A stretch of 64,000 nt of DNA. Origin: Symbiodinium sp. CCMP2592 (taxonomy: Eukaryota; Sar; Dinophyceae; Suessiales; Symbiodiniaceae). This document shows positions 11,060 through 60,346 of the stretch, one piece after another. Below the pieces are notes generated by a model. The model saw only the letters and a program-made list of their open reading frames with translations, was not told where the DNA came from and searched no databases. A program made the position numbers and the translations under genes. The stretch covers positions 124,001 through 188,000 of the forward strand of contig CAJNDT010000512.1 of the NCBI GenBank assembly GCA_905221615.1, in the 5' to 3' direction. Positions within the stretch are counted from its first letter, which is position 1. Each line of letters starts with the position of its first letter.

Positions 11060-12527
11060 ATGGAGAGTACCATCGACTTTGCCAATGGCCAGCCTGCGGC
11101 TGAAGAGCTGCCGAACGAAGTCCTGCGGCAGGCTCTGCTTGGTTTTCTGGGCTTGTGGGGGCCGGGGGCCGAGTTAGGTTTCTTAAACCTACCTCTGGGT
11201 TCTCTAAGTGGGATGCACACGGTGCCAGCCGCAGGCTTGTCAAGACCTCTTCGCCGACGGTTCTGGAATCCCTGGAGCACCCAAGCGCCGACGGCTTGGG
11301 GCGTTTAGCACCGCGGCAAGTTACCCAAGCTCAGTTTCCTGGCTCTGCAAAGCTTTTCTTCGCTTTGGAGTAATCGCGGTGTCATACTGATTTCATGTTG
11401 ACCAGCAGGGTCCTTTGGAGTACGGCGATTTCACCTGGGAATTCCGATACGAGCTGTCGGAGTTCCTCGGGCGGCACGACTCCTCCCGATGCCGAGGCCC
11501 TGATCCTGATCATCTCTTCCTGACGGCCGGGGTGTCACAGGCACTTGACATGCTGAGTACGATGTGTGCCGATCATAGACAAGGAGACGTGGTCCTAGTT
11601 GAGAGCCCCACCTATTTCCTGGCACCCGCCATTTTTCGGGATCATGGGCTCGAAGTTGTTGGAGTGGACACTGACTCTGACGGAATGATTATCCAGTCCC
11701 TACTGGATGCCTTGCAAAAGCTTCGGCAAAGTGACCGAAGAGCTGCAATGCTGTACACGATCCCAGTTCACCACAATCCCACGGGACGCACAATGCCAGC
11801 AGAGCGACGCAAAGCTATTGTTGGTCTTGCCAGGGAGCACGGCATACTTGTGATCGCGGACGAGGTTTACACCCTCCTCACATACGGCGTGTCCCCACCG
11901 GCCACGATGGCAAGTCTTGGCGAGAACGTAGTATCTCTGGGGAGTTTCTCAAAGATTTTGGCGCCAGGGCTCCGGGTAGGTTGGATAGAGGCGTCTCCAC
12001 AGCAGCTAAAACGATTGAGCAAATGGGGTGTCATCGACAGTGGTGGCTACCTGAGCCACTTCGCCTCCTGCGTTGTGGCCACCGCCATGAAGTCCCGAGC
12101 CTTGGATTCACATCTAGAGCAGCTTCGAAAGAACTTCCAGGAACGTTGCCAGTCCTTGGTGGGAAGCTTAACGGCTACGCTGCCGGGAGATTGCGCAGTA
12201 ACCAACCCTTGTGGTGGCTACTTCGTGTGGGTCAAGCTCCCGCAGCATGTGGATGCTCGTGACATAGCATCAAGATCTGAAGAGTTTGGTTTTCTTGCCA
12301 AGCCCGGCCACCTGTTCACCTTGGAAGCAGGCCGTGAAGACAACTTCCTGCGCCTGTGCTTTGCGAGGCTGCAGCCTGCGCAGCTTGCGGAAGGAGCGCG
12401 CCGTCTAGCTGCTGCGATCCAGCACACCGTTGATCGTCAGCGTGAAGTGCCGGAAAAATCCATCATGTGCGCGATCGCAGAAGTAGCAATCGTTGTGCGG
12501 AGTCGAGAATCACATGTCTTGTGCTAA
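11060..12527 (+). CDS. PLP-dependent aminotransferase, class I/II (2-aminoadipate/kynurenine aminotransferase-like)
   Basis: Exon 1 (11060-11131) starts at an ATG and encodes IDFANGQPAAEELPNEVLRQ, the N-terminal lead of the family. A GC-AG intron (11132-11408) joins in frame to GPLEYGDFTWEF. Exon 2 (11409-12527) carries the fold type I landmarks: HHNPTG, VIADEVY (the Asp pairs with the pyridine nitrogen and the Tyr contacts PLP), SFSKILAPGLRVGW with the Schiff-base Lys and phosphate-binding Arg, and FLRLCFA with the substrate-carboxylate Arg. The enzyme moves amino groups between an amino acid and a 2-oxoacid. It most resembles the LysN/AADAT branch, but the substrate cannot be told from sequence. 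No targeting peptide is apparent. The last 40 residues are not conserved and could be intron read-through. All catalytic residues are present. Confidence 0.88.
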
Positions 12528-13393
12528 CCGAGGTCGAGATCTGTGCCAAAGCATGCCAAGCGGAGCTGGCGCAAGACTTACCGTCCAGACAGGATCCAAT
12601 TTCCAGCCAAGGGACCAGCATGCTTCTTAATCGGCTTCCACTGTGACCAATCCTGACATCCTGACCTCAATAGCGCCGGCAGGGCAAAAGCCTTGCACGA
12701 CTTTCGGTGGCGCACCTGAGACAACTGAGGCCTCACAGCTTGTCCCGCAGCAGCTTGAAGACGCCGAGTTGGGCTTTGGCCCTAGCCGTTTCGGCCGGCC
12801 TAAAGCGGAAAGCAGTGAGAATCTGCTCTCGAGTCTGCCTTCAGGCCGCAGCCTCGTGACAGCTTTCGCTGAAGCGCGTGCATCGGAGATGGCGCCAGGA
12901 CTCCAGTGGCTGTGTGTCGAACGTGTCGAAAGCTATCATCACAAGCAGGCGATACTGTAGGGCAACACATGCGGCATCACAAGGGCTGGTGGAGCCAGCG
13001 ACAGCGTGTTCGTGTTCGACATCGGGGTCCAAGCTTGCAACAGATGTCTATCTGAGGTTGGACGTTCTCCTGCGCATGAAAGGCGGGCAACAATTATGTC
13101 TGGGTTTGGGGATGCTATTCGAGAAAAAGCACTTGCAGGCGACATCACATGTGCACTGATGCCAGGAGAGGGGCTCGAACCGACTGCAGACACCATCGCA
13201 GATGTTATGTCAGCCTGCGATGCAGGCCTTGTCGCATGCAAGGGACTGCAGCGTACAAGAAATACCGCATTCTACCGTCTAGACTTTGACTTAGTAGATC
13301 TATCTGCCGAGATCTGCCGAGGTGATGCAGAGATCGTGATGCTCCAACGTTGCATCGCACAGCATCTGCGAATCTGGTGGCGTTGGCTCAAAC
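12528..13393 (+). other. intergenic region with one weak PPR-like segment
   Basis: At about 13100-13235 the + frame reads EKALAGDITCALMPGEG, then LEPTADTIADVMSACDAG, resembling one PPR unit. It is isolated, so either a fragment or chance. The rest shows no gene. Confidence 0.3.
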
Positions 13394-14404
13394 ATGGAGT
13401 TGCCGGGAATAGGCCATTTTCTGCAGATTTTCTCACGGCCTGGTTGGATGGGGGTGCACTCTGGATGGGCGCCGCAGAAGGCGTGGCACAGTACCATCAG
13501 GTTGGCAGATGAAGCGCACGGGCGCTGGTCCAAAGCTGTGACCAGACTTTGCCAGGGCTTCTTGCCGACAGTGGCCTTGCTGCATGGCATGGGGGTCATC
13601 GACTTGGACTCGTTTGTGGCCTCCTGCTGGAAAGAAATGTACTCGTGGCCAGCCATTCATTGGGCGATGATTGAAGCACTCGTCGCGGCATTCGCTTTTG
13701 TTGCGTGGATTTCGATGTTTTTCATTCTGAACGAGATTCCTTTTGTGAAGCCCTTCCGAATGGTAGTTCGGACAGAGTCGCACCCTCTTAACTCTCACTG
13801 CATGACATCCAGAACTTTCAGCAGAGTCTATGCCTCCTTTCCTGTGTATGTCGGAGGCGTGTGGTTACTTCACTGTGTCAGGGCTGCACCCCAAGTCCAG
13901 GACGATCCCCCCACAGCCTTCCGGCTTTTCACCGAGCTCTTGCTCGGCATTGTGGCATACGACTTCATATTCTACTGGATTCACCTGTCGATGCACAAGT
14001 TCCCTAACTCATGGCATAAGCACGAGACTCATCATGAGCTCAAAGTGCATCCGGTTTGTGGAACCAGCTTCTTGGGGGTGGAGCTTGTGGTGAACCAATC
14101 TATGGAAGATGCCTTCCTTCAGGTGATGACGAACATCTTAGTTCAGAACCTGCCACTTTTTGGCCTGCCGAAGCACAAGTTGAGCCGTCTCCTTCACAAC
14201 ATGCTCGTAACATACCTGCTTTCGGAAGCACATTCTGGCTTGGATCTGCCTTGGTCCATGCACAGGATTCTCCCAAGCATCTATGGCGGGGCATACCGGC
14301 ATGAGTTTCATCACCAGAGGAGAGACTGCTGCTTCCATCAATTCTTCTGCTACTTGGATGACCTCTTTGGCTATGGACCCCCCAAGAAGGCGTCACTCCA
14401 GTAG
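13394..14404 (+). CDS. fatty-acid hydroxylase / sterol desaturase superfamily membrane enzyme
   Basis: A 336-residue frame from ATG to TAG with hydrophobic segments near residues 92-113, 146-163 and 180-196. The di-iron histidine clusters are in order: HLSMH (197-201), HKHETHH (208-214), His280 in EAHSG, and RHEFHH (302-307). This pattern defines the ERG3/SUR2/methylsterol-oxidase group, ER membrane enzymes that hydroxylate or desaturate sterols or fatty acyl chains using O2. Length fits the family (about 270-350). The first 80 residues are not conserved, so the true start could be downstream or in an upstream exon. Substrate undetermined. Within this frame no intron is needed. Confidence 0.85.
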   Translation: MELPGIGHFLQIFSRPGWMGVHSGWAPQKAWHSTIRLADEAHGRWSKAVTRLCQGFLPTVALLHGMGVIDLDSFVASCWKEMYSWPAIHWAMIEALVAAFAFVAWISMFFILNEIPFVKPFRMVVRTESHPLNSHCMTSRTFSRVYASFPVYVGGVWLLHCVRAAPQVQDDPPTAFRLFTELLLGIVAYDFIFYWIHLSMHKFPNSWHKHETHHELKVHPVCGTSFLGVELVVNQSMEDAFLQVMTNILVQNLPLFGLPKHKLSRLLHNMLVTYLLSEAHSGLDLPWSMHRILPSIYGGAYRHEFHHQRRDCCFHQFFCYLDDLFGYGPPKKASLQ

Positions 14405-21896: not shown

Positions 21897-22115
21897 ATGC
21901 ACCAGATTCTTCTCGCCCACGTTGCACTGTCAGCGGAAGGCATCCATGGATATTCACAACCCCATGCCACCAATTCTTGGGCGCCCCAAGCTGGCTTCTC
22001 AGTCACACGCGTCGAGAAGCGAGGATCGGCACAAGTTCGGAAGGTCACTTTGGGTCGCCTTGTGTCGAGGTTCAACTACACTTTCGACTACAACGGTGAG
22101 CGGCTTGCGATGTAG
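21897..22115 (+). CDS. unrecognised short coding-like exon
   Basis: The frame ends with RVEKRGSAQVRKVTLGRLV, then SRFNYTFDYNGERLAM and a stop, which reads like the C-terminal exon of a real protein. No matching family comes to mind and no upstream exon was located. Confidence 0.3.
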   Translation: MHQILLAHVALSAEGIHGYSQPHATNSWAPQAGFSVTRVEKRGSAQVRKVTLGRLVSRFNYTFDYNGERLAM

Positions 22116-22875
22116 AGGCTTTCTGTCGGCAACAAGCTGAAAAGATAAGTTGTCTCCGAGCCGGAGATGGTCTCACTTTGTCTCACCGCGAGACGGAGTC
22201 TGCAAAGCAGATCAAAACAGGAAAGCTCCATAAACTCATGACCGAGCCTTCTGTTCTGACGACTGTGCAGTGGTTCGCCTCCACATCCCGCATTCGGTTC
22301 AAGCCACAACCCGCTGAACAACACAACCCAACCCACAAAAAGTTTTGGCCTTGCGGCAGGCATGGCTCGGTGAACTCTATTGCCCTTTCCGGTGGGTCCA
22401 AGACAACACATGCTTTGTCAGGCTGCAATTTTCGCTGTTGGCAGACGTACACAATGGCTGCATCCTTGTTACTTGTAGCCGTAGCCGAGAGATCTGAAGT
22501 CTGAGTCTGCGAAGTCCTTCTCAGATCTTCCGAGGCCTTCGCAGTCCGTGCCGCACGTGCGCTTGGCGCCCGCGGCTCGAAAGGCTGGCAATGGGATCCT
22601 GTTTGGGGGTTCATGAATTGAGTGAGCCTTCTTATGCAAGCTGCCCAGCTTCTGGACGCCAAGCTGACGTGTGCGTAAATCACTCATGCTTGATACTGTA
22701 TCCCTTGTCAGCAGCAGTTTTTCTAGTCATGCCGGACTGCTGCGATCGGATAGGTGCGACGCGCAGCTTTGCCGTGGGAGCGAGCCCGGCAAGCTTGAAC
22801 ATTGAAAGCCGAAGTGACCGTAGGAGAGCTATGCCCGAAGCTGAGGCTCATGAAATGATTCCGTGCCCATGGTAG
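22116..22875. other. upstream region of the EF-Tu gene
   Basis: No clear gene. From an ATG at 22729 a short frame reads RIGATRSFAVGASPASLN, which could be a targeting-peptide exon for the EF-Tu gene that follows. It is too short to prove. Confidence 0.3.
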
Positions 22876-23827
22876 GTCTTCCAACGAAACAAACCACACA
22901 TGAACGTCGGCACCATCGGCCACGTCGACCACGGAGTCTTGGCGTGCGGTGACATTTTGCAGAGGCTGTCCGGACAAGGTTAGCAACCAAAAACTGGGCA
23001 TCTGCAACAACGCATTGCTTGGCCGTTCGGACATCAACACGGGCTTCGTCCCGTGTTGGTTCCATGATTCTCAAGCTCAACAGGCGACTGGACCCTCGTG
23101 CTAAGGAAAGACCACTTTGACCGCAGCCATCACAAAGGCCAGAACTCTTCCACCACGAAAGCATAGTATGCGAGCACATTGGCTTCTTGGCGCAGGTTAT
23201 GGCAGATGAAGGGCGAGCTGAGTTCAAAGCCTATGATGCTATTGACAAGGCTACCTTTGCAGTCTTTCTCCATATGCTCTCCCGTTGGCCTCCTGCTGAA
23301 TAGACTCCGCGACAGGCTCCTGAGGAGAAAAAGCGCTCGAGTCTTACTTTTGATGGGTCGATCGACCGCTTGATGCCACGAATATCTCTCTGCCCATTTC
23401 TGTTGCTTGGCTTGACCTCCAGGTGGTATCACCATCAACCAGGCTCACGTAGAGTACGAGACTGACAAGAGACACTATGGCCATGTAGACTGTCGGGCTC
23501 TCGCACATAGAGCAACCAAGCCAAGCAGCGCTCCAGCAGCACCGTGCTCATCGAGGTCCTGGTCACGCTGATTATGTCAAGAACATGATCACTGGCGCAC
23601 CTCAACCGCGCTGGAAAGCTGTGCTTGAAAGCTGGGGGGGCCGACTGCCAACACGGCCACTGCCGAGGCTGCCCAGATGGATGGAGCCATCCTGGTGGTC
23701 TCAGGCGACGGAGCTCGGAGCTTCTCTGGCTGCCGTGTTTGTTCCGCTTCCGCGGAATTGTGCGAGGTTATGACGGACCAATGCCACAGACCCGAGAGCA
23801 CATCTTGCTCTCCAAGCAGGTTGGAGT
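22876..23827 (+). CDS. tufA/TUFM-like: elongation factor Tu, organellar type: exons 1-8
   Basis: EF-Tu carries aminoacyl-tRNA to the ribosome with GTP. Exons: 22876-22933, 23106-23137, 23196-23249, 23316-23334, 23423-23491, 23556-23596, 23668-23704, 23767-23827. Spliced, they give without frame breaks [20 protein letters not shown] (G1, split by intron 1), [60 protein letters not shown] (G3) and [19 protein letters not shown]. Introns 1-7 are 58-172 bases. Donors are GA (intron 1), GT (intron 5) and GC (2-4, 6-8); all acceptors are AG followed by G. The targeting-peptide exon was not securely found. The sequence looks more plastid/bacterial-like than animal mitochondrial, but the organelle is unproven. 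Confidence 0.92.
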
Positions 23828-24122
23828 GCTGCGGCCCCAGATTTTTGCCAGACGAAAGACATCTGCATCCGCATGCGGACGTGCCTGCTGCCTTGCGTTT
23901 TGGGCCCAAGTAGCTTGAGTTCTTGTTTTTTGTAGGAGTAGGATCACCCTGTTGTGATCGGCAGTGTGCCGCATGGCAGTGCCCTTTGCATCGCTTGCAG
24001 TGCACTACAGCAGGTGTGGACTGGAGAAGGCTTGTCTGACCCTGGGGGCTTAAGACAAGGGTACGGCTAAAGCTTGGTCGGGTCTGACGAGCGGCAAGTC
24101 TCTAGAAAGTCTTTCTTTGGAG

Positions 24123-26575
24123 GTCTGGAGCACCCAGCTCCGCTGGGAGGGCAAAGATGGTCCAGAGGAGGTCGCCGACGTTCGTCGGGCCATGGCTGAA
24201 GCCACAGGCCAGCATGCCACAGCACTTTGAATGGGTTTCCTCGTGGCTACTGATAGGGTGTTCGCAGGATTACAGCATTACTGAGTTGGAGAAGTGGGAT
24301 GACCGGCTGCAGACGGTTTGTGTGATGTGACGCACAGCGGCCGGACCCACACGCCCATTCTGATAGTCTCGCCATGAAGCTTCCTGCAGCCCAGACAAGG
24401 ACAAGCAGTCCTGTATCTCAAGAAATCCAGACCGCCACAAGCACAACTACTTGTACCTTCTAGCCACGACCCACGATAAAGTACAGGAGGAAACGGAACT
24501 GACTGCGTGCACAAGAGCTGGAGCTATCTTTGATTGCTTGATTACTTGAGGGGAAGTGTCAGGTATATGACAACCTTGAAGCAGGATTGCTTTCAGAACT
24601 GTCCTCTTTGAAGGCATCTCGGCTGGCAGCCTCAGCTTGCTCTGCTTGCAGCGGAAGCCTGGCAGCCCACAGAGCACGCTGAAGCCTGTCTCGGGGCAAA
24701 GTCTGCCGGCAAAGGTTTAGCGGAAGAGAACCGATGGAACCCTAGTGGGTCCACACATACATGCGGACATACTATGCATACACGCACGCGTGCATACCTA
24801 TAGAAAACTCGCGCTACTGCGCCGGGGACCACTACTACTGGTACCGCTACTCTGCAGTCTTCACGCTCTGTAAAGCTTTGTAAGCCTTCTTTCCGTCCTT
24901 CGAAGGCTCGACTGTTGTCCCCTGTGTTATAAGCTGAAGCTTGAGGTCTGGTTGCGTTTTTGGAGCAGAATTGTCGGGAAGATCACGGTGTTTTCCAGCT
25001 GCGCGCTGCTTTTGACAATGTCACCAACGAGGATTTCGTGCAGGTGCGCGTGGCCTGCCCTGGCACGGCCACCTCAAAGGCTGTCGCGAACAGTAGCGCG
25101 AGCCAGCCTCTGCCGATCGTGATAGAGCAGTTTGAGCTTGCGGCCAGCGGCACGGTGACGACTCTGAAAGAGCTGATCTCCAAAAGGACGAAGTTCCCCG
25201 TAGATCAGACGGTGCTGTTACTGGGCTGTAAGCGCTTACACGATGAGCTTCCCATGGGCCGCGTCGCCGCCGCCGCAGAGACGTCCCAGACTCCCCTGCA
25301 GCTTCATCTGAGCGCCAAGGGAGCCCTGGCCTTCCTCAGGCGCGAGGGGCAAGGACACCGCGAGCAAAATGGGGCGCACACACTTAGCCTTATTCTGCCG
25401 GCGTCTGTGAAGGGCAGCCATGAAAGGCCTATGCCCTTCGATCTCAAATCCACTCTCAGTGATCTGCGATGGTCTGTGCAGAGCGTTTCAGGGATCTCTC
25501 CTGCACGAATGAAGTTGGTTTTGGATGACGACAAGGACTTGTCCTTCGCGTTGGAGTCCAGCACTTTAGAGGAGCTTGGCTTCGAGGATGGCTGCAGCGT
25601 GCATGTGCATCAACCCGATGCTCTGGCCGACTTCGACATGCCGTTAGATATCCCGTCCATGGGTCCTGCAAGCCTGCTTTACGAGACGGCAGCAGAAAAG
25701 CTGGGGGTAGTGGACCAAAGCAAGCTTGCAATCTTTGCTGGAAGTCAGCTGGTCGAACGCAGTGCTGATTTATCCCAGGCGCTCATTGCTGACGGAGTCA
25801 TCCTCTGTGCTTACATGAACTGGCCCTTGCATTTATCCGTGTCCGTCCTAGACTCGAGCCTCCCAGGAACCCTGGAGGGCTTTCCAGGCGCATGGCCTCG
25901 GATAGTGATCAGTGTGGGTTGGGTCGTGTAGATGGCTTCTTTTGGGTGTCTTTGCAACAAGATCTAGAATCTAGCATGGTTTCAGGTACTTTGGAAGTGC
26001 GGAGCTGCGATTCCATTTCGGACGTCCGCCGGAAACTGGTGGCCCGCGCCGTGGAAGCAGAGGCGACGGCCCTTCTGGAGGGCAGCTTAGCCTTCGCGGT
26101 GGAGTGCTCCACCTGGGAGCGAGAGGGAGCGGGGTGCCGCAGTCTCGCATCGCTGGAGACGCTGTTGGGAGGATTCTCGCCTGTGCCTGAGACGGCGCGT
26201 CTCTCCAGGTTGGGAATGGCTGACGGTGGCTGCCACCTGGTCTTTGTACCCAAGAAGGTGGTATCTCTTGAAGTTCAGGTCTGCCATGGTGAGGAAGAGA
26301 AGGGCCTTAGGCAACTCAGGGTGCCAAGCACCACTCGGCTTTCAGAGCTTTCAAAGATTCTGATACGAAGTCTACGGCAAAGCAGCCTCCCTGATTTTGC
26401 CCCAAGCGAATTCGCCCACTGCTCCTGGACGCCCTCCTCCGATCCAAAGAGCTCTCGGGACGGCCTGCAACGGAGTGTCTCGCAGTCCTCCTTCGGCGGA
26501 GTGCCCTGGCCGCAGCCGTCTCGACCTAGAGGTCGAAACGTTGTCGAGTCACACTCTAAGCAAGGCTTCTTCTAA
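24123..26575 (+). CDS. multi-ubiquitin-like-domain protein, N-terminal exons (gene lies within EF-Tu intron 8)
   Basis: Exon 24123-24207 encodes EEVADVRRAMAEATG, the helix of a ubiquitin-like fold. A GC donor joins it in frame to exon 24946-25866 as ATGLVAFLEQNCRED. Exon 2 holds about three beta-grasp units: VTTLKELISKRTKFP with LLLGCKRLHDEL; STLSDLRWSVQSVSG with KLVLDDDKDL; and LLYETAAEKLGVV with IFAGSQLVE. A GA-AG intron (25867-25985) preserves the frame (SSLPGTLEVRSCDSISDVR) and starts another unit in exon 3, which runs toward 26575 with an unresolved end. The lysine and di-glycine tail of real ubiquitin are absent, so these act as domains rather than as a processed modifier. With the U-box exons that follow, this is probably one E3 ligase gene. 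More 5' exons may exist. Confidence 0.7.
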
Positions 26576-26638
26576 AGTCACGACAGTCCAAAAGAGGGAG
26601 CCTAGGGCCTACTGGTAGGGTCTTTCTTGGACTTCGAG

Positions 26639-27535
26639 GTCGCAGCGATGCTGTCGAAAGTGAAGAGGAAGTCCTTCGGGAGCAGCCCGGGCTCTCCACC
26701 CGAGAAGCGCCGCCGGGGAGCTAGCGACTCCAAGGACCGGAGCCGTACCCCACCTCTCTTTTCCCGTGCTGTCTTGCCGTCTTCGTTGCCGTTTGGTTTT
26801 TGAAGCCAGGGGAGGGGACCCCCCGCTTTTCTTACGATGGTCTACATTGGTATAACCTATCAGAGACGGAGTGAGAGGACATGGACGAGAGGCAGTTTGT
26901 GGGTGACCTGCAAGCCCAGCATCCCACGTCCTCCAGAGCTCTCTGTCAGCCTGCGACCCAGACTCTTCTTTTGAGAAGCTTGAGCTAAGAGCATGTGAAC
27001 CCAGAAACTCATGAAAGAAGCAGAGTCTGTGAGGCAGTTCCTGTGCCCGATCTCCATGCAGATCATGCAGGATCCCGTCATTGTCACGGGAAGTGGCAAC
27101 ACTTACGATCGCAAGTCGATCGAACGGCACTTCCAGCACTTCTACAGAGACCCGCTCAACAACACCGAGCTCAGAAGACCGGCGGATCGAAGCCAGTCCG
27201 AACTGAAGAGCCAGTCAGAGCATGTCGTTTGCAGATTTTGTGCCCGTTGTTGCTGCTATCGCAGTAGCGTCGCACTGAGTCGTCATCATGACAGAGGCAA
27301 TATCAGACGTGCTTGCTTGCTACAATAGTCGAGCTACCAGCATTGTCGGGCACTACCAAGCTGACAGCGGACGAGGAACAAACAAATGCTAGTAGTAATG
27401 TCCGCCACTGCACAACGATCATCAGGATCGTATTGAAGAGTGTGGGTGTTTCGCTGCGCTTTAGTTGGTGGTTCGGCCGCTATGTTGCCTCCAGGAAAGC
27501 TGATTCCAAACAACCAGCTCCGCAGCCAGATCCGA
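26639..27535 (+). CDS. U-box E3 ubiquitin ligase, C-terminal exons of the ubiquitin-like gene
   Basis: Exon from 26639 to about 26739 encodes a basic, Ser/Pro-rich segment (KVKRKSFGSSPGSPPEKRRR), a likely nuclear localisation signal. Exon 27034-27173 encodes the U-box core: QFLCPISMQIMQDPVIVTGS, NTYDRKSIERHF and DPLNNTEL. A GA-AG intron leads to exon 27495-27535, continuing ELRKLIPNNQLRSQIR, which completes the U-box with its conserved L-I-P-N-x-x-L-R. The fold recruits E2-ubiquitin without zinc. The link to the upstream ubiquitin-like exons rests on strand, order and spacing; a transcript would settle it. The last exon with the stop was not identified; a coding-like stretch at about 27695-27790 is a candidate. 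Confidence 0.8.
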
Positions 27536-28401
27536 GCCTCAGTTGCGTTGGAGTTTGACCGCCGAGTCAGCTAGAGTCGTTCTGGAAAACTCACTATCGC
27601 GGTGAAGCACTGCTCATCCAAGCATATCAGCGACTCTCGTTCCCCCTTGAATCTAGAACGGTAGACTCTTGCAGTCGCTCGTGCGACTCGCCCAGGTGAA
27701 GCTGAAATTTCTCAAATTCACTTGCGACTTACTGCACATCTTAGTGAGGCTTGATCGCACTTTGCATCCTGGTGCATTACCTGTCGTGAGATGTGGTCAG
27801 ACTGAGGAACAGCGCAGCTTTTCCAGCGATGCGCCGATGGCAGAATATCTTCGTTACTGTGCCTCTTTGTTGAGCCGAGGAAATTAGGACAGATTAGGTC
27901 TGCCTTCTTTCACGAAGGTCCGTGACAGGCATCCAGCTGGTGTCTGCCTGTATGTTCGTACTCCCCCCCCAGACGCTTCACTCAGCCCGAAACGAGCAAA
28001 TCCTGTCAGAATTGTGCGATTGAAGCAGCCGTACTTCATGGAACCTGTGTGCTCGGATGTGTGGCAGAGCTGAAGCTAATCCTTCAAGGGTCACGAAGAT
28101 TAATGATTTGCTTGTGGCAGGCCGGCACCAAAGGTGTACCGGAAGTTAGGGCACTTACACGCCTGACTTGACTTGGCCACTGCAACGGACTAATGAACCT
28201 GCATGAAATGCGTAGGGTGGAAGATGGAAAGCCGTCGTTCCTGCCGAAGTAGGAATTGGCAGTCGTGACCAGCTGATCAGCCATGACTGCTCATCAGAGA
28301 GAGCGATGAGACGCGGCATTGGATGAAAATCCAGCCATGACGCTGTCAGAACAGAAGCCCGCACGAACTGCCTGACCCTTCGGATTGCACTCGCGCTCAA
28401 G
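27536..28401. other. 3' part of EF-Tu intron 8, after the U-box exons
   Basis: No further gene recognised apart from the possible terminal exon of the U-box gene near 27695-27790. The intron ends with the AG at 28400-28401. Confidence 0.4.
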
Positions 28402-28620
28402 GCCCAGCATCGTGGTGTTCTTGAACAAGATGGCTCAGCCGGGCATGTTTGTCAAATAACGCAGGGCCTGCAGTTGTTTGTCTGGGACAGATGTCGCTGC
28501 AGCAAGATTCGCATCACTTCGAAGACTTCACAACAGCTGAAATCGGTAACCAGTCCTGGCGTCTGTATGTGACAGGACATGGTCGAAGACATGGAACTTG
28601 TCGATCTTGTGGAACTGGAG
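28402..28620 (+). CDS. tufA/TUFM-like: elongation factor Tu, organellar type: exons 9-10
   Basis: Exon 9 (28402-28432) follows exon 8 in phase: QVGV-PSIVVFLNKM. Exon 10 (28576-28620) continues DMVEDMELVDLVELE. Together they supply the guanine-specificity motif NKxD (NKMD), split by intron 9 (GC-AG). Exon 10 ends at a GT donor. The precise phase match with exon 8, 4.6 kb upstream, is the main evidence that this is one gene with another gene inside intron 8, and not two EF-Tu fragments. Confidence 0.9.
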
Positions 28621-31600
28621 GTGATCCCGTGCACAAATGGCCCATGTTCAGAATCAGCCTTCTGGCCTTGCCCAGTCATGGTCTTGGCTCGAGCGCAGCA
28701 GAACTCAGCCTTGGACTCCGCGGATGTTGAGCAACTTTTGTGCAGCTTGCTTACAGCGACTCTGGAGAGAGTAGCCCGGGGTGAAGACTGAAGATGACAT
28801 GCCAATGCTTGCAACCCTCAGGGAGTGCAAAAACTGTCAGAAAGCTTGAAGGGCGCTGCACAGACAACCAGAACGAAGACTACACCCCCCACACTCTTGA
28901 ATCTCAATCTGCGAAGGTAGAGGTGCAGCAAGATTAATTGTGCAGGAGGCATTCATTTGGTGATTGCACCGGAATTAATACAAGCTGCGGATACAGCATG
29001 CTGTTAGCGGCTCGGTGTAGCAATCCCAGATCAGATCACCCTGTAGCTGGGCCTACGCTAATTTCCGATTGAACTGTGCGCGAACGGCTACCATTCATTA
29101 CCATTCGACACTCCAGAAACAGTGCATGAGAAGTTCGCCAAGAAGTCGAAACTTGACCAAGGCAAGGCCCCGTCGGGGCCGCCGGAAGCCAGCGCGTTCC
29201 CGGCGGAAGGAGCCGACTGCCAAGTGGCTTGTGGATGAGGCAATCAGATCTGGTGTCATGTCAAGGTTGGCCTACGAGAGTGCTAAGTGGGTACTTCGAA
29301 TCCGATTGAAGCATATTCCCTTCTGGAGGGTGGAGATGAATTTACACTCTAGGCTGTCGTCACTTGATTGGAGATTGGACTGAGATGTTGATGGTGAATC
29401 GAAGAGAGGAGGAGGCTCTCCTCCTGATCGTTACATGCGTATGCCGGTTTGGGGTAGGGTTGTTGCTGTTCTTGCTAGCGACACATCTCAAACTTTGAAG
29501 AATCCTCACCTCAAAAGATGCTGTAGGCTAGGCTGAGATGAGATCGGGCAGCAGAGAAGGCCTTTTGCGCTTGTCGGTTACAGCCTTCCGAAGCCGCAAC
29601 TGCGTGACCGTCTGCAGACCTACTATCACACATGCCGCAGGACAGCGGCACTTTGCCAAAATGTTTCTCGCCAGCATGTTATTACGACAGAGTTGCACAC
29701 ACGGCTGCCCTATCCTAGAGCAGTCGCGGCTCCTGTCATGAAGCGCGTACTGCACGATGCCCTGCAGCGGCATCTTTGCCATGCGTTGCCATGCCAAGGT
29801 GATGACACCCGCGAGTGGTGGAAGTGGCAGGCCCAGACGGTCGTGTGCCTGGGCTTCGACTTCGGATCGGCGCTCTGCCGGTACCGCTCGACCTGCAACG
29901 AATGCTGAAACAAGATCACTGCCTTGATCCTTGCTACTACTAGCACTCGATTCGTGCAAAAACCCACAGGTTTTGTACATCTACGTGCCGACATGTCTAG
30001 CACATCACGAGTTCCCGGAACTTCCAAGTCGAGCTACCAAGGCTGCATGCCAAGGGTAGGATGCAGTGCAATAAACGCGCAGTGGCGCAGCTGAGAAAGT
30101 GCCGAGCGAAGCCTTGCAATTGGGGGCTGCGGGGCGAGCAGGGCGTCTGAACAAGACCGGTCTCGGACCACTGATTCCGTCTTCGATGCTGCTGCGACTT
30201 CCGAGATGCGGAAGCTTTGACTGAACTGAGGCAGCCGCCTTTGTTGACGATTAGCGAAGAGAGTGCTCCAAGGCGCGCGGCGGCTGCGTTGGCACCCATG
30301 GGCGCAGCTTTTGAACTGATGTTGCATGCTGTTTTGCGACGAGACGCCGCCATAGTTATACTCGTCACAGCAGCAGGCACGAGGACAGAATCTTTCTCAG
30401 AGACCGGATGACTTCTCGGCGGCCTGTCAGCAGCTTTTGCACCGTAGTGAATGACGTTGTGCTTTCTGCTTCCTGTGCCGAGGTATTTGTCAGTTATTGG
30501 CCACCACGGCAGTGCAATACAGTGCACCATGCCCGTTGCTTACAGTGAGCAATCCGTGCAATCGCATTGAAGCGACGATCACGGAACTACAGACTTGTGA
30601 AAGCATGCATCGTGCCACTCAGGACAGAGAAGCCTGCATCTCTGTTCGTGGTCCATGCAGACATGGCAGAATACCAGGCAAGTCGTAGAAAAGACAGATC
30701 AGACAGGGTTGCCTGCCTTATCTGAAGCACCAAAGATTCGACAGGAAGCATGGCTGGGTTTCGCACACGAAGGGTTGCCGGCATTTGGCTGCTTCCTTGG
30801 CTACGACAACGCGTTTCAGAGCTGGTACGCCTCGCTGGGAGCAGGCCCGGCCGTGGTCGTTGACGCACCGGCTGCTGCTGTTTTACTTCGTTTACGCAGG
30901 CTCTGAGCATCCTCTTCCATGCGAAGCCGAAGGCTTCCAAGCTCACAGCACCTTCAAGTGGCATCCGGATGCCACACTAAGGCAGCTTGGCTTAGCCCAT
31001 CGCAGCTGGTCCGACTGCTTCCTGGCCCTCGAGAGGCCGTCCTTGCGAAGCTTCTGCGGCCAAGGCACTTGTCAAGTGGGCTGTGGCTGCATGCGGATCC
31101 GTTGACGGATGCCGTACTGCTCCATGCCAACAGGAGGAGTCAATGGGAGGACAGGGCTTCCATTTGTCATTGCCGTAAGTTTGGGCGGCAACCTTCGATG
31201 CCTTGTGATGCCTTCCCTGCAGGCTGTTCCTGTTGCCTGAGCGACTGTACAGAATCGAATTCGATGCTTTCCTGATCTGGCGTCTCCCGCCAGGAGGACA
31301 AAGGGGGGGTTTGCAGCATTAGATGCACGTGTATGCCAGCGCACAGCAATGCAGTCGGTCGTGCTCCAAGCTGATCAGGACAAAGTTTTGTGGACGGATA
31401 GACAGGTGTCGCCGCTGAGGCCTTCCATCGTGGACACAGCAAGCAACTTACTTTCAGCTACAGCGCGCCGAGTGCGCCGAGTTGAGTTTTGATGTTGCCC
31501 TGACCAAGGCTTCGAAATGTGTTGCTGACTTCACAAAACCTCTCGGCCTGCCAAGACGGCAGCCTTCGGCAAAGACCCGCAACTGCTGTGCTTTCGACAC

Positions 31601-31939
31601 GGGAGTTGCGAGGGAACTTGTACAGCCATAAAGCCTCCAGAAGGCCCAGGCCCAAGTCGGCCACAACCCGTGCTCCGCCCTGTACAAAGATCTCATCTCA
31701 CAATTTTGCCAGAACCGGTTGCTGCCGGATGCGCTACTGCAAGTCAAGACGACTCGGGTCCCTGCACAGTGTTTCTCCGGATGCACCTGGTGCCGTCGTG
31801 TGTCGATTTTAAGGCATGCCAGGGCGCCCAGATTTGCAGGTGGTGTGCGCAGGTAAACAACGTCGGGCGGGCTGTGTGACTGAGCGCCGCTTCATGCGCA
31901 ATGCGCAGATAATTAATCTAGATGTCAGCCTGCCAGCAG
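28621..31939 (+). other. EF-Tu intron 10 (3.3 kb) with coding-like stretches
   Basis: Bounded by the GT donor after exon 10 and the AG before exon 11. Inside, + strand segments look protein-coding without a family I know: EKFAKKSKLDQGKAP near 29130, WLGFAHEGLPAFGCFLGYD near 30755, and REAVLAKLLRPRHLSSGLWL with LTDAVLLHANRRSQWEDRA near 31035-31160. A perfect 18-base palindrome, gtggcatccggatgccac, is at 30959-30976. These could be exons of another nested gene. Confidence 0.5.
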
Positions 31940-33704
31940 GTGCGAGAAATGCTGGATATGTACTCGTTCCCTGGTGACGATACGTGCTCGACTTGGCTGT
32001 CAGGGCTGACTTGGCCAGTTGCATGCTCGACCCGATTTCGAGGCCTTTCGTCCGGGGTTCGGCACTGAAAGCATTGAACGGCGACACTGGTGAATATGGT
32101 GTCCCAGCCATCAAACAGTCATGCGCTTGGGACCACTTGCACTCGTGTCAACATTATGCACTTGGAGACAACCCAGGCTAATGGAAGCTGTCGATTCGTT
32201 CTTCCCAGATCCACAAAGGCACGAGCTCTATTGTTCGTGGCATCTGCAGCCACGGGTAAGCCGAGTCTCCCTGCCACATCCTACCACGACAACTTAACTT
32301 GAGAGGGACGTGGACAAGCCCTTCCTCATGGGTGTGGAGACTGCAGCCTGACTGAATTCTCACAGCTGAAAACGTGCACAAAAAGAAGGAGGGTTGGTGT
32401 CGGCCGAGGTGATGAGCATCACGGGGAAGGGCACAGTTGCCACGGGCAAAATCGAGCGTGGCATTGCCAAGACGGGTGACACGATCGAGATTGTCGGGGT
32501 CAAGGAACAGCGTCGCAGATTCGTGCTTTGAGACTTCTCAATTTCTCGTCCAGCTGTCCAAGTGGATTCGCACAGGATAAGACCGCGAAGGCCACCATCT
32601 CTGGCATAGAGATGTTCCACAAAACATTGGATGAGGGCCAGTCTGGCGATCAGCCTGGTGCTCAGTCCGTCCACCGACAGAGTTGTGATGGATGTTGCCT
32701 TGCAGACGATTGCAGACGAAACGGAAGTGTTGCCTTCAGGTGTGGAATTATGCTGAAGGGTATCAAGAGGAGCGAGATCTTGCGAGGGCAGGCAAGTGAC
32801 CTCTTGCAGCCTTTGCGCTTGCTACGTGCTCCGGTGCTTGTGCTCGCCGGTCAGGTTCTGTGCGCTGCCGGGACTGTGAAAACGCTTCGACCTCGTCGCA
32901 GGGGTGTGGATGTTGTTGGAGCCACGTATGTTGTGCGAAGTAACACCGTCCTTCAGGTTCTCTAAGTTTGATGCGGACATCTACGTGGGAGACCTACAGA
33001 TGGAGCAACCTGATATCTTGACAGGGACGAGAAAAAGTACTACTTGGAGAGATCCCTGAGACACCGACTGCAGGTGCTGAAGGAGGACGAAGGCGGACGC
33101 AAGAAGCCCTTCTTCTCCAGCTATAGACCACAGGCCGTGTGACATGAGATCGCTGTGAATCATGCTGGCGATCGCTTAAGTGTTGCAGTCATGGAACAGA
33201 GAAACATGCCAGGCATTCATCCGAACGGGCATGGTGACTGTGGAAGTGCAGCTTCCCGAAAGCGCCGGCTTTGCCAAACTTAACTGGAAGAGCTTTTCTG
33301 ATGCTGCATGACTTCAATGTCGCCTGTCGCGATGCGCCAGGTGGAAATGGCCATGCCGGGGGATTCCCTCTCCATCAGCCGGCGCCTGAGCACCTGCAGA
33401 GGCGAGGCGCCACAGTGACAGGAAGCTGTGAATAGAGAAAGGCCTGGCTGCCGAGAAGCCCATGGCTTTGGAGGAAGGGTGCTGACCCCGGAGGGCCCCA
33501 GTCGCCGGTCAAAGGACATGTCACGTTTCCCTTCCGCAAGGCTGCGCTTCGCTCTCCGAGAAGGTGGTCTTACGGTAGGCTGGCATCCCAGCGAGGACGT
33601 CAGGGCGCCGTGGGTTCTTTGCCACATGACCTTGTCATCCTTGTCAGCTATGCTGATCTACTGTCGATCCCCGAGGCTCTGGCATCATCACCAAGTGCTA
33701 CTAG
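31940..33704 (+). CDS. tufA/TUFM-like: elongation factor Tu, organellar type: exons 11-25, to the stop codon
   Basis: Exons: 31940-31983, 32043 to about 32112, 32177-32218, 32306-32342, 32409-32504, 32576-32652, 32740-32791, 32855-32883, 32957-32984, 33074-33133, 33213-33263, 33341-33377, 33442-33478, 33541-33578, 33676-33704. They read in order [28 protein letters not shown] (G5 motif SAL); [130 protein letters not shown]; and SGIITKCY then TAG. Domains II and III are complete and no stop interrupts the spliced frame. Only the junction between 32112 and 32177 is unresolved. Donors are mostly GC. The gene looks intact and under selection. Confidence 0.93.
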
Positions 33705-34906
33705 CAGCACACTTCGCGCGGCGTTGAGGCATGCATCGCGCTGTTTCAGACGGCCTGTGATGCACCGTTATGCATGGCTTGCAGCTGCTCTTTGCTGCAG
33801 GTGTCCGAAGAGCCCACTGAGCTTAGCCCACTGAGCTTCGCGTACAACTGGTAACGGGTGCAGCTTCCGAGCCGCCCAGAGACAAAATATGCGAACAGCC
33901 ACATGTCCCGCAAATATGACGAAGAGATCGCAACACGGACAGTTCGTAGATAAAGGCAGATGAATTGAAAATGATGAGGTTGAATAGCAATACATGGGTA
34001 AGACGGATGTAAGACGGGTAAGAAAAGCGTGCGCACGCACATGCGCACACGCGCACAATTACATGTGTGCGTAGCTACGCGTGCACACAACAGAGTAGGT
34101 CCGAGTCGTGTCGTTATATAAAGACAGAGGCAGCAAGGCAGCGTCAGGCCGTGGGGTGCCCCGCTCAGCAAGCGGAAGCTCAGCTTTCTCGGCTTCAGCG
34201 CCGGCGCGGCTTCGCGGGAAGCGGCGCGGAGCCAAGGAAGCTGCGGCCGGCACCTCGACGAGGACCCAGGTATCACCGTGTTTGCTAAATGTTTCACAAC
34301 GTCTTTAGCGATTCTTGGGTCCTCAAAGGCTTGGAAGGAGGGATCGTTCCCTTTGAAAGGCATTTTCCGGCAGAGCGCGAGCTGCTTCAGCCGTCCCTGA
34401 TCATCAGAAAGCCAAGAGAATTTTCATGCACACAGGTGAGTTTGATGGACGTTCTGCTGCGTATTGCAGTTATTATTTATTGAATCGGTTGTCAAAGCTG
34501 CGTGCTGAGCAGGCAGCTTACGCCAGTTGCTGCTCCCCTTTGCTCTTTCGAAGATGACCTGCTTAGATGCGCTCTTGCTTGCGAGAAACATTTCGAGGTT
34601 ACATGCGTGCGTTTTGCTGATTTGCTTTGCCTCGCCATCGCGCTTTGAAGGCATTGCGAGTTTCAGCCGGTTCAGGTAAGAGCCTGGTCACCTGTGGCCG
34701 CTGGGCTCTATAAAGGTTTTCTCAGCGGCCGTGAGCCACATGGAGAAGCATGTAGGCTCACAGAAGCAACTAGGGCTCCTGCCCACAGTTTATGATGAGA
34801 GCGACCGCAATCCTGACATACCGTGCAAGCAAGAGAACTCTAAGGGAACTCGCAGCGACTGAAGAAGCTCTGAAGAAGCACTGCAAAGTGGGTGAGGGAT
34901 GATGGC
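33705..34906. other. spacer between EF-Tu and the formin gene
   Basis: Bases about 34028-34090 alternate purine and pyrimidine (gtgcgcacgcacatgcgcac and similar). A short + frame near 34300-34430 (LKGLEGGIVPFERHFPAE) may be an upstream exon of the formin gene. Nothing else recognised. Confidence 0.4.
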
Positions 34907-36895
34907 ATGATGGAGTCTCCAGCGACTTCCAGCGGCCCAAAGAGAAACCTCATCCACGAAAGTTGGCTTCGGAAATGCAGCAAACATTTGCGCATTTGGA
35001 GATCTCGATGGGTTTCTATTTGGGGTGGACAGGAGAACGCAGTGCTTTGCTCCCCACATGCATACAACTATGCGGATGTGAGTGAGCGGTTTGAATTCGC
35101 TGCAATAGGCAAGATTTGGGAGGCACCGGATGGCATGTACGGGCGTCCGCATTGCTTTGTCATGGAGCACCTCAGTCCGCAAGGCACGCGCCTGGTGGCC
35201 ATGCAGGCCCTCGACGAGAGCAGCAAACATACGTGGATGCGAATATTGGCGAGCAGCACGCAGGTCCAAGCTCCGTTGCTCCCGGCGGGGTCCATCCAGC
35301 GAAGTGCAGCCGGGGGAGAAGCACAGGACGCAGCTTCAGAGTCCCGAGCCCAAGCCGGTGGCAAGGGGACAGGGACCGCATCGTCCTCAAGTGGAAAAGG
35401 CTCTGGCAAGGGCCCTCCGGTTCCGGTTCCAAGCAAAGGCAAAGGAGCTGCTAAAGGCCCTGGGAAAGGTCCTTCGGTGCCTCCACTTCCTCTCGGAAAG
35501 GGCAAGGGCAAGGGCCCCAAGGCAAAGGCTCAGCCGAAGGCCTCAGCAAAATCGCTGCCCTTCGGAAAGCGACTGAACATGCGAGACTCCGGAGCGCTTC
35601 CACAGACGGCTCGAGGCGAACAGCCCAGCATCTTCCAAGGACTCTTTGCCAAAAGAGCAGGACAAGCGCAGGAGGACATCGACACTTTGCGCTCCTTATT
35701 CTCAGAGACGAAGGCCTCTCCTGGTAGTGCTGCGAGTTCGGGCCCGGTGTCCCTAGTGCCAAGCGCCACCCCGCGCAAAATCTTCCCGGATGCCGTGGCC
35801 CGGAACTGCCAAATCGTCTTGCGTGGCCTGGCATTGCGGGGCCCAGAGCTCGTCGAAGCTGTGAAACTCTTAGAGCCCGGGCCTTTGGACCAGGACCAGC
35901 TCGAGCGGTTGGCCCAGATGATGCCCGAGCCGTCCTTGATGTCGCAACTGGACAGGGAGGCAAAGGGACCGTGCCCCTCCCCTTTGCGGGACGTGGAGCA
36001 GCAAATGGTGCCGTTCAGCCAGCTTGGACGCCTCCAACAGCGGTTGAAAGCCTTGATTTTGGCTGCAAACCTGCAGCCTCAAGAGCTTCGGCTTATGGCA
36101 CAGATGCAGGCCGTGAGAGAGGCGTGCACCCAGATGCGTGAGTCAAGCAGCCTTAAGCACGTCCTAGCCACCGTTCTCGTGATGTACAATTATGTGAACT
36201 TTGGCCAAGTGGAGCGTGCAGAAGCACGTGCCTTTGACATCGCCAATCTCCTTCACTTGAATGAGTTTCGAGCTGATCGCAGCGCCCCATTTCCAAAGTT
36301 TACAGCGCTGCACTACGTTGCCATGAGGCTTCTGGCCGACGAATCTGATGAGTCCAGTGGTTTCCATGCCAAGTCGATCCGCACCTTGCAGGCTGAGCTG
36401 CACAGAGTGTCGGAGGCAGCAGGCATTTGCCTGAAATACGTTTCAACTTCGATCGAGCAGCTGACTGAAGACATCCGGAAGCTGCGAGAAGAGCAACGAG
36501 CCAATGCCACGGTCTACGGCGGCACCGCCGATGTGGAGGCCGTCAACTGGGCTGGGCTGGGCTGTGCTGCTTTGTGCTGTTTTGCGCTGTGTCCGCTGTG
36601 CCTTTGTGCTGCGCAGGAGCCCGCTCCAGCTCCAGCTCCTCCGCCTGTTCCCACCCCACCAGTGGCTCGTCGTTTGACCGAGCTCAGCGAGGTCTCCGAG
36701 TGCGAAGAGATGACACCCCGTCCGGCCCTCAGCCCACCAGCTTTTTCAAGTTTCTACCAGCAGACTAGCAGCCGTGTTCCCATCATTCGAAGACCCGAGG
36801 AGTGGACCTCATCCCCCAGCAGACGCCTCGATGCGGTGCCAGTGCTCCTCCCAGCATCCAGAGAAGAGCCCGAAGAAAAAGAAGCGAACTCATAA
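34907..36895 (+). CDS. formin-like protein: PH domain, Gly/Lys/Pro-rich linker, FH2 domain
   Basis: The first ATG in the frame is at 34907; the frame is also open upstream, so an earlier exon is possible. The first 120 residues form a PH domain (SWLRKCSKHLRIWRSRWVSI to KHTWMRIL, with the invariant Trp of the last helix). A linker of repeated GKG/KGP with Pro stretches follows, acting as an FH1-like region. From LFAKRAGQAQEDIDTLRSLF the FH2 domain follows: ARNCQIVLRGLAL; LEPGPLDQDQLERL; PFSQLGRLQQRLKALIL; SLKHVLATVLVMYNYVNFG, equivalent to the GN-x-MN motif; and FTALHYVAMRLL. FH2 domains nucleate and elongate actin filaments; PH domains bind membrane lipids. After LREEQR (about 36499) a GC-AG intron probably leads to a Pro-rich exon at 36617. 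The FH2 end is missing here; see 39350-39733. Confidence 0.8.
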   Translation: MMESPATSSGPKRNLIHESWLRKCSKHLRIWRSRWVSIWGGQENAVLCSPHAYNYADVSERFEFAAIGKIWEAPDGMYGRPHCFVMEHLSPQGTRLVAMQALDESSKHTWMRILASSTQVQAPLLPAGSIQRSAAGGEAQDAASESRAQAGGKGTGTASSSSGKGSGKGPPVPVPSKGKGAAKGPGKGPSVPPLPLGKGKGKGPKAKAQPKASAKSLPFGKRLNMRDSGALPQTARGEQPSIFQGLFAKRAGQAQEDIDTLRSLFSETKASPGSAASSGPVSLVPSATPRKIFPDAVARNCQIVLRGLALRGPELVEAVKLLEPGPLDQDQLERLAQMMPEPSLMSQLDREAKGPCPSPLRDVEQQMVPFSQLGRLQQRLKALILAANLQPQELRLMAQMQAVREACTQMRESSSLKHVLATVLVMYNYVNFGQVERAEARAFDIANLLHLNEFRADRSAPFPKFTALHYVAMRLLADESDESSGFHAKSIRTLQAELHRVSEAAGICLKYVSTSIEQLTEDIRKLREEQRANATVYGGTADVEAVNWAGLGCAALCCFALCPLCLCAAQEPAPAPAPPPVPTPPVARRLTELSEVSECEEMTPRPALSPPAFSSFYQQTSSRVPIIRRPEEWTSSPSRRLDAVPVLLPASREEPEEKEANS

Positions 36896-38000
36896 CATTT
36901 CGTCTTCCCCACCCATCTCTCTTCCCTTCGGTTATGTTGTCCCTCTGCGTCTGAGGAGCGGCTGCCTGGCTGCGCCAGGCCGTGGGCCAGCTCGGGCCTG
37001 CAGAGCTCTCGGACATGGCGAGAGGAGCCGGGTAGGGGTAGTGCTCGGAGTCGCTGCAGCGCTCTGCAGTGCAGCTCTTCCCTGAAGCGTTGCTCCAGGA
37101 GCGGCGCAGCAATGCCCGAGCTCAACCTGGCTCATGATGCAGGACGGCGGGACCGGCGGGACCCGAAGCCGCAAGGTCTTCGTCACAGTGTCCGAGCTCG
37201 GCGTCATGTGCTACAGCGAGAGCATGGCGAACCCTGAGACAGTGCGGTGCTTGCCACTCATCGGGGCCGAGATCAGCCCGACGCAGTCACCAACTGGCTT
37301 TGAGATCACTTGCCTAGCAAAGCCTGGCTGTACGACCAAGCTGAGTTACAGGTTCCAAGCGCCGGATCTGCAAGCATCCTTCCTCTGGCAGAATGCGCTC
37401 CAGGCGGCTTCGATGCGTGCAGGTGCTGGTTGGCTGGAGGTGTGCAGTGCCTTCACTTGGAAGTGTCGCTGGGTGGTCATCTTGACCATACCCTCGACCA
37501 CAAGCCGTGGAGCTTCAAGGATGTCAGATGGTAGCCGCTGCTCTGCGTCTTTGCGGGCTGGGTCTCGCTGGCTGTTATGGTTCCGCAGTCCGGAAGAGAT
37601 GCTGGCTGGAGATGTCTGTGGCAGTGTTGAGCTGGGTAGCACAGAGGCCTGCACCGATACAAATTTCATGCAAGTCTTGTACAAGTGCCGATTCGCAAAC
37701 TGAGCAGTCGTGCCTGGCTTTGAACGCGCAGGTATTCAATCGAAACCCGCGCGCTCACAGCTTCAGGGTGGGTCTCTCTGCCTGCAGAAGCTGCATTCGC
37801 AAGCTCCGTGTGCTTCGTCCTTTTTCTTTAGCCGAGCTTGTGGTAGGTAGCACTGGAGATGCCGAACGTTGCCTTCAGGTTACATTCAGCACAGAAGCGG
37901 GGGAGAAGCTTTATCCAATCTCTCGCTCAGGGCTCGCGATGAAGCGGAAATGGACAGAGTCTTGCCGAGTCCAGAGCTGTTGCCGCGGCGGTTTTCGAAG
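36896..38000 (+). CDS. PH-domain exons between the two formin parts
   Basis: From about 37128 the + frame reads WLMMQDGGTGGTRSRKVFVT, then VSELGVMCYSE and, at the end, SFLWQNALQAAS: strand 1 to C-terminal helix of a PH domain. A second PH unit starts at once with GWLEVCSAFTWKCRWVVI near 37432. It may continue across introns as SVELGSTEACTDTNFMQ (about 37620-37675) and VTFSTEAGEKLYPIS (from 37880). PH domains bind phosphoinositides or proteins. These exons may belong to the formin gene, to a gene nested in its intron, or to a rearranged copy. Junctions are approximate. Confidence 0.5.
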
Positions 38001-40762: not shown

Positions 40763-40977
40763 ACTTGACGGCCAGTGCGGCTGCTCTTTCATTTGGATCG
40801 CTGATCAGCTCCCGCTTTGAGCGTGAGGCTTCGCCAAAGAGCGGCCAGCAAAGCGTTCTTGCATGTCACGAGTCACAAGTCGCAGGAGCCAGCGGCGCTC
40901 TACAGTCCAGGTTCTGATTCTGCATGTGCACAATCGTCGAACCTGGAAGCCCCCCAGCATAGCCACGTCTGCATCCA

Positions 40978-43900: not shown

Positions 43901-45240
43901 AGGATCCGATGCGCAGGAATGCAGAGGCAGAGCGAAGCAAACATTTGCAACCGCTGAGGCTCCCTGGCCAGATTCTTGCAGAAGATGCAGACGGAGCGTG
44001 TGTCGGGAGTCTTGGTCCCATTGATTCAGCTGCTGCTGTGGCCAGTCGCGACCTGAGCGCCTTCGCATTTCCTCCTGTCCACTTGCGGCCCCCCGCCAAA
44101 CGCTGAAACTCGAAAGCGTGCGCGAGGCGGTGCCCGCAGCACTGGCAGAGAGCAAGGCCTGTGGCGAGAGAGACGCTGATTGACATGAGCTGGCGAGAGC
44201 TGCAGTGTGCTGCCATGTTCTCGAAGTTGGGCATGGCCATCGGAAAGTCGAGAAGACTAATGATTCTAATGGGATCGCGAGCGCAGCTTGCTCAGGGGCC
44301 AGCGAACTCTGACAAGACGAGAGCAGCGGTCCAGGCAGGGACTTCGCACAGTCTTACAGAGTCTTACATTTACGTTGTTTCTGAGACAATTGGTAATTAG
44401 GCAATTCTGCCATCGCAACAGGGCCACTAACCGACAAAATCCTGCAAAACCGCGATCCAGCATTTTTTTCCTCGCAAGCAGTGCATCAACAGCTAGCGTG
44501 GCCTTGTGATTTTGCCTTGGAGGCTCTGGGCGAGCTGTGCACAGCCTGTGGAGTGGAGGCAGAGCCGGACTCGCCTGAAGTGATGCTGCCTCCATCTGTC
44601 TCAGCCAATTCGCCTGCTGGTCTGTGTCGCTGCCAGGAAGCGGCGCTCGCAACCTCCGAGGCACCGAGACAAGCTGCACTGTGAGGGCATCTCTACTGCA
44701 GCAGCAGCACGGAAGATGCTCGCCGGAGGTGTCCGCACAGCAGCGCTTGTCGGAAAGGCCAGCTGCGAACTTGCACCGGTTTTACAATCACAAGCGGAAC
44801 CTTTCGTGCAAGCCAGGCAGATCTGGCTTCGAGATTGCACCGGCGCAGATCTTTTGGGTAAGGCAGCAGAAGGGGGAGCATGACAAGCCACCGTCTTCTG
44901 TCTATTTCTGCACGATTGCCCTGGCATGCAGGAGAAGGGGATCAGCAATCCTTTCCGCGGGGCCATCCAGGCGCGGGCCTTTCTCGTCATTCTCGTTGGA
45001 TCATGGTGCGCTGCTCGCTTGCAGTATCGAAGCTATAGGCCATGCTGGACGATCAGAGCATAATGGGCGTCTCGGGTGTCTCGGCTCTCCGGTGGTCGTC
45101 GGGGGCTTTACCGTTGCTTTCATCGCCACAGTGCCTCCGAGGCCTTGACAATGGCTTTGGACGGTGCTGCTGGGCGGACAGCACCGAGAGGCACCATCGA
45201 AGGGCCTGTGCAAGTGTTTGGGATATTGCTTAAATGGACC
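40978..45240 (+). CDS. unrecognised multi-exon gene candidate in unit A (repeated in B, C, D)
   Basis: Several + strand stretches look like helical protein exons bounded by AG-G and G-donor sites: MEWLSAVPRLHSRR with LRFTVNFLHLLAEAVEAVSS (from 40978); HIFSERLMKALAEGIEQLGF (near 41425-41515); VRDDTFDAMLAS joining GLLHHVRAQ (near 42007-42145); ALKRMALRLTREPDAHRAK (near 42270); IAWQAMRYVFHGYDM (near 42585); AQMAKAMHKDSSGALQAALT (near 43070); DVLDLVIDLLGLRQPAVTQ (near 43195); KLESVREAVPAALAESKA (near 44105); FALEALGELCTACGVEAEP (near 44510); RKMLAGGVRTAALVGKASCE (near 44710). Helical, perhaps HEAT-like; I do not recognise a family. Two 6-base indels between units keep frame, while several 1-base indels do not, so some copies may be dead. 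Confidence 0.35.
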
Positions 45241-46716: not shown

Positions 46717-46781
46717 CATATCGATGTTATGTTTAACATGCTGGTCGGGCCCGGCCTCGCGTCACAGGAGTAACCCATGCC

Positions 46782-60281: not shown

Positions 60282-60346
60282 CATATCGATGTTATGTTTA
60301 ACATGCTGGTCGGGCCCGGCCTCGCGTCACAGGAGTAACCCATGCC

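Follow-up and report, generated by a model that had tools for sequence, protein, structure and literature searches.

Nested genes are common in at least one dinoflagellate. In two genome assemblies of Polarella glacialis, 4,898 and 3,359 intron-nested genes were reported, corresponding to 8.4% and 6.5% of genes, and the nested structure was confirmed, according to the authors, by full-length transcripts (PMC7245778). The example given there is an alanine-tRNA ligase gene that hosts 15 nested genes; the part of that publication used for comparison does not state the strand of the nested genes. Same-strand nesting has been described in human, where, of 158 nested genes that encode proteins, 53 were classed as tandem, 31 of these being judged real and 22 host splice variants, and where interference with the host, such as exonization and intron retention, was reported (PMC3192792). 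In Symbiodinium microadriaticum the gene blocks are described as unidirectional (PMC8110479), so that nesting on the same strand would be the expected case there. Here we analyze a locus of Symbiodinium sp. CCMP2592, contained in a window of 64,000 nucleotides (nt) of contig CAJNDT010000512.1 (assembly GCA_905221615.1, positions 124,001 to 188,000, forward strand), in which intron 8 of an EF-Tu gene contains, on the same strand, coding sequence for ubiquitin-like domains and a U-box.

The locus resembles those of P. glacialis in that protein-coding sequence lies within an intron of a multi-exon dinoflagellate gene, and differs from the published example in its partners, an EF-Tu host and a ubiquitin-like/U-box guest. 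It shares with the human tandem genes the placement of guest and host on one strand, whereas the human genes lack spliced-leader processing. A first-pass annotation, made from the sequence alone, had singled out this same-strand nesting. Our analysis supports the nesting itself, but not the weight placed on it: the arrangement was right in kind and is less surprising than first proposed, the EF-Tu/U-box pair being a further instance of an arrangement already counted in thousands. We consider it highly probable, from the gene structures described below, that this is an ordinary nested gene in a genome of dinoflagellate type, and that the guest in intron 8, one gene or possibly two, is expressed separately from EF-Tu. 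Our literature searches, which were not aimed at EF-Tu or U-box genes, found no paper on this pair, and are no evidence that it is unreported.

The EF-Tu host gene and its introns

The host gene was read with a purpose-written, splice-aware protein-to-DNA aligner, using Escherichia coli EF-Tu as the query and positions 22600-34300 of the window as the target. The aligner allows GT, GC or GA donors and only AG acceptors, penalizes GC and GA relative to GT, and gives a small bonus to AG/G (a slash within a motif marks the splice junction). It recovered a colinear plus-strand gene of 25 conserved exons covering residues 6-391 of the 394 in E. coli EF-Tu, with the reading frame exact across every exon junction and a score of 1111. 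The control alignments, 16 in all, scored 212.5-249; 12 of them used a shuffled protein and one a reversed protein, and the remaining three targeted the reverse strand and two further parts of the window. Both ends were extended by reading the sequence. The start of the first conserved exon was shifted from 22879 to 22876 on an AG/GTC acceptor, and the last residues, K-C-Y, are followed by a TAG stop that ends at 33704. Exon numbering begins at the first conserved exon, and the gene has at least 25 exons in total.

The joined protein of 392 residues matches the EF-Tu model TIGR00485 over its whole length with 634.3 bits (cut-off 522.4), shares 62% identity with that of E. coli, and aligns over residues 2-390 with solved EF-Tu chains. 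It retains the conserved GTPase and nucleotide-binding motifs, for example GHVDHGKTT, DCPGH and NKMD. The host is, as predicted from its joined exons, an intact EF-Tu of the organelle (bacterial) type; it departs from the TIGR00485 proteins in being encoded by a eukaryote-type gene split into at least 25 exons, many of them tiny. In a tree of 69 sequences (80 fetched loci, less 13 that were not parsed in full, with E. coli and the window protein added), the window protein sits on a long branch of 1.84, and the tree does not separate a mitochondrial, plastid or other placement.

The junction between exons 8 and 9 is placed exactly at 23827/28402. Exon 8 ends in codon phase 2 before a GC donor (23827/23828), and exon 9 begins after AAG/G, restoring the frame as ...QVGV-PSIVVFLNKM and splitting EF-Tu without overlap or gap. 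The first-pass annotation had given the same donor, phase and acceptor, with the frame resuming as VPSIVVFLNK, and the spliced alignment reproduces it to the nucleotide. Lengths of 58-172 nt were found for 22 of the 24 introns; introns 8 and 10, at 4574 and 3319 nt, are outliers. The donors comprise 16 GC, 6 GT and 2 GA. AG/G is found at each of the 24 acceptors, against 212 AGG among the 817 AG in the stretch; these counts are not fully independent of the aligner's donor and acceptor limits and its AG/G bonus. Published values are similar for Symbiodinium natans (58% GC, 23.6% GT and 18.4% GA donors; 97.1% AGG) and P. glacialis (52.7%, 28.8% and 18.5%; 96.9% AGG), and differ for Amphidinium gibbosum (25.0% GC, 74.9% GT, 0.1% GA) and Amoebophrya ceratii (99.9% GT) (PMC10666404). 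Compared with these values, the predicted EF-Tu gene structure, with its GC, GT and GA donors and AG/G acceptors, is of dinoflagellate type.

Coding sequence within intron 8

Two ubiquitin-like families were matched above their Pfam cut-offs on the plus strand of intron 8, PF00240 (ubiquitin, 3.7e-12) and PF14560 (2.2e-5). Both lie in a single open reading frame (ORF), 24945-25928, and none lies in the next ORF, 25793-26572. Further downstream, the frame 26999-27325 encodes a U-box (PF04564, 2.9e-13, 50.2 bits against a cut-off of 21.4). A score of codon usage, trained on four further plus-strand ORFs, marked four islands on this strand of the intron, given with their exons in Table 1, and one weaker minus-strand island, 26225-26317, that overlaps the plus-strand islands. 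The score is weak for tiny exons, because it flagged just two stretches over EF-Tu exons (23142-23279 and 33014-33139). In intron 10 no gene was found: four ORFs scanned there gave no Pfam match, many shorter ORFs lying outside the scan, and no codon-usage island reached a score of 12, against a background drawn partly from intron 10 itself.

The nested coding sequence has two clear introns of its own, both GA-AG/G. When the U-box is joined over the second of these, it aligns across the junction with CHIP and other solved U-boxes, the best solved matches being CHIP U-boxes with E-values of about 1e-7. Its TAG stop lies 827 nt upstream of EF-Tu exon 9. For the ubiquitin-like exon, which is open from 24945, candidate acceptors are found at 24945/24946, 25031/25032 and 25043/25044; the predicted structure of the protein encoded by 25032-25865 has a mean predicted local distance difference test (pLDDT) value of 36 and is uninformative. 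The first nested intron is flanked by a roughly 15-nt imperfect repeat (25863-25878 and 25980-25997).

The exons on either side of intron 8 form one gene with an in-frame join, and the sequence between them codes for protein as a unit of its own, with exons and a stop codon separate from those of EF-Tu. The earlier proposal of a U-box coding sequence with its own introns, inside intron 8 and on the same strand, is upheld, and a gene nested within EF-Tu intron 8 on the host strand is confirmed at the level of sequence. The predicted product shares with U-box E3 ligases such as CHIP, UBE4A and plant PUB proteins a U-box above the Pfam cut-off, and would probably function as an E3 ligase. CHIP and plant PUB ligases carry tetratricopeptide (TPR) or armadillo repeats; in contrast, the nested gene has ubiquitin-like exons upstream of its U-box.

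Several observations weigh against the reading of one complete gene nested in another. The reading frames give no certain start codon or first exon for the nested gene, the exon chain of a single gene has a gap from roughly 26530 to 27000, and the Pfam search of ORF 25793-26572 returned no match. On the side of the host, no start-codon exon was found upstream of conserved exon 1, and the splice-site counts carry the partial dependence on the aligner noted above. The U-box frame also contains an ATG, at 27010, which makes a second arrangement possible: two nested genes in intron 8, the first for a ubiquitin-like protein and the second, starting at this ATG, for a short U-box protein. The first-pass description is therefore borne out as to the presence of ubiquitin-like and U-box sequence, but a single multi-ubiquitin-like/U-box protein is not proven. 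Two genes would account for the ATG right before the U-box and for the stops and the incomplete chain between the two parts; however, further short open stretches lie between these parts, and it would be reasonable for one protein to combine ubiquitin-like domains with a U-box. We judge two genes unlikely, though the idea carries some weight.

The missing start codon and partly incomplete exon chain could also be taken as signs that the nested sequence is a decaying pseudogene, in which case it would pose no splicing conflict for EF-Tu. This seems improbable: the sequence has an open frame of 328 codons with native-like codon usage, domains above their cut-offs and an exact intron within the U-box, and a search of the genome matched the first ubiquitin-like exon to itself alone, giving no second copy that might replace it.

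Origin and processing of the nested gene

Searches of the organism's own genome covered 1,098,105,373 bases in 5,383 contigs, a size that, taken with the splice sites, points to a dinoflagellate. The protein of the first ubiquitin-like exon (25032-25865) had a single match, itself, among seven candidates scored. A search for the U-box family found nine places, of which eight were fetched; the other U-boxes among these matched at 28-50% along the aligned part, and one of the eight places had no listed match. The single match of the ubiquitin-like exon and the divergence of the other U-boxes indicate that, within the reach of these searches, the nested gene is not a recent copy within this assembly, and a recent duplication was rejected on these grounds. 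An origin as a retrogene tagged with the dinoflagellate spliced leader (DinoSL) was likewise rejected, since the nested gene has introns and no DinoSL relic occurs in the window (0 matches over 16 nt when as many as 3 mismatches are allowed). The 10-nt DinoSL core, with at most 1 mismatch, has 7 matches in the window against 7.4 expected. The spliced leader is added in trans, and a genomic relic of it need not exist at a gene. No transposon-like repeats of at least 20 nt were found in 22000-34500 with a 12-nt seed.

The length of intron 8, a strong outlier, would be explained if either the nested sequence or the latter half of EF-Tu had been misjoined in assembly. Such a chimera is highly improbable, because the halves of EF-Tu fit each other exactly at codon phase 2, G+C content is alike in intron 8 (0.554), intron 10 (0.553) and the short EF-Tu introns (0.559), and nested genes are common in the dinoflagellate group (PMC7245778). 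That the nested exons belong, as alternative exons or ends, to a single EF-Tu transcription unit, as their strand and the re-judgement of 22 of 53 human tandem genes as host splice variants (PMC3192792) might suggest, deserves very little credence, given that the guest has unrelated domains, its own stop and its own introns, and that EF-Tu is complete without it.

If the sequence in intron 8 is an ordinary nested gene, either the EF-Tu precursor mRNA must pass over the nested splice sites, or it must arise apart from the nested transcript, as follows from nesting on one strand. Both genes are probably expressed, and their mature mRNAs would be made separately. For the EF-Tu mRNA, the GC donor at 23828 would be joined to the AG at 28401, so that the whole intron of 4574 nt is removed and the nested splice sites go unused. 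The nested mRNA would have its own 5' end, most likely created when a spliced leader is joined in trans at an AG that precedes the start codon. In dinoflagellates the mRNA 5' end is reported to be a trans-spliced leader (PMC2488372), and polycistronic expression is apparently rare (PMC11453091); by analogy, spliced-leader processing of the nested gene is plausible. Some splicing interference between the guest and EF-Tu may occur, as with same-strand nested genes in human. A stronger proposal would treat the nesting as a working regulatory link, in which leader addition to, or splicing of, the nested gene competes with the removal of intron 8 and so balances EF-Tu and ubiquitin ligase from one precursor; this we hold to be very doubtful.

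Surroundings and significance of the locus

Outside intron 8, Pfam matches above cut-off were found in three scanned ORFs, all on the plus strand (Table 1); outside intron 10 the scan took plus-strand ORFs only, and this result agrees with a unidirectional block without testing one. The aminotransferase and fatty acid hydroxylase ORFs (11391-14401) are two long unbroken frames near a gene of at least 25 exons. A second PH-like ORF (37086-37700), slightly below the Pfam cut-off, follows the formin ORF, and an unbroken plus-strand ORF of 455 codons (5302-6666) has no Pfam match above cut-off. A repeat array extends from 40780 to the end of the window at 64000. Within it, 41388-50407 and 54929-64000 are 98.5% identical over 9081 columns, and 40780-45226 and 47141-51532 are 96.4% identical; its ORF 41932-42705 has no Pfam match, and 54779-54893 is a near-perfect inverted repeat, 115 bp matching its own reverse complement at 99%. 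An exact direct repeat of 90 bp occurs at 1018-1107 and 1172-1261. Searches for tRNAs, which used the bacterial code, and for RNA families found none in the window.

Table 1 Features of the EF-Tu locus and its surroundings (positions in the window)
Feature	Position	Strand	Basis
EF-Tu conserved exons 1-4	22876-22933, 23106-23137, 23196-23249, 23316-23334	+	Spliced alignment with E. coli EF-Tu
EF-Tu conserved exons 5-8	23423-23491, 23556-23596, 23668-23704, 23767-23827	+	Spliced alignment with E. coli EF-Tu
EF-Tu intron 8, host of the nested coding sequence	23828-28401	+	4574 nt, GC-AG
Nested ubiquitin-like exon	25032-25866	+	PF00240, PF14560; codon-usage islands 24948-25337 and 25431-25928
Nested intron 1	25867-25985	+	GA-AG/G, 119 nt; imperfect short repeat at flanks
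Nested second exon, new frame, approximate 3' end	25986-26530	+	Open frame 25793-26572; island 26009-26305
Nested exon encoding most of the U-box, approximate 5' end	26999-27173	+	PF04564; island 26999-27229
Nested intron inside the U-box	27174-27494	+	GA-AG/G, 321 nt; U-box alignment crosses the junction
Nested last exon, end of U-box, stop 27572-27574	27495-27574	+	Open frame 27437-27574; U-box alignment
EF-Tu exons 9-10	28402-28432, 28576-28620	+	Spliced alignment
EF-Tu intron 10	28621-31939	+	3319 nt, GT-AG
EF-Tu exons 11-25, stop TAG 33702-33704	31940-33704	+	Spliced alignment; 3' end read directly
Aminotransferase ORF	11391-12524	+	Pfam
Fatty acid hydroxylase ORF	13340-14401	+	Pfam
Formin FH2 and PH domain, single ORF	34874-36892	+	Pfam

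The EF-Tu locus offers a clean and readable case in which cis-splicing over an intron of 4.6 kb must cope with the splice sites of a gene on the same strand. Such loci could distinguish whether the unidirectional blocks of dinoflagellates are transcribed as one precursor that is then divided, or gene by gene.

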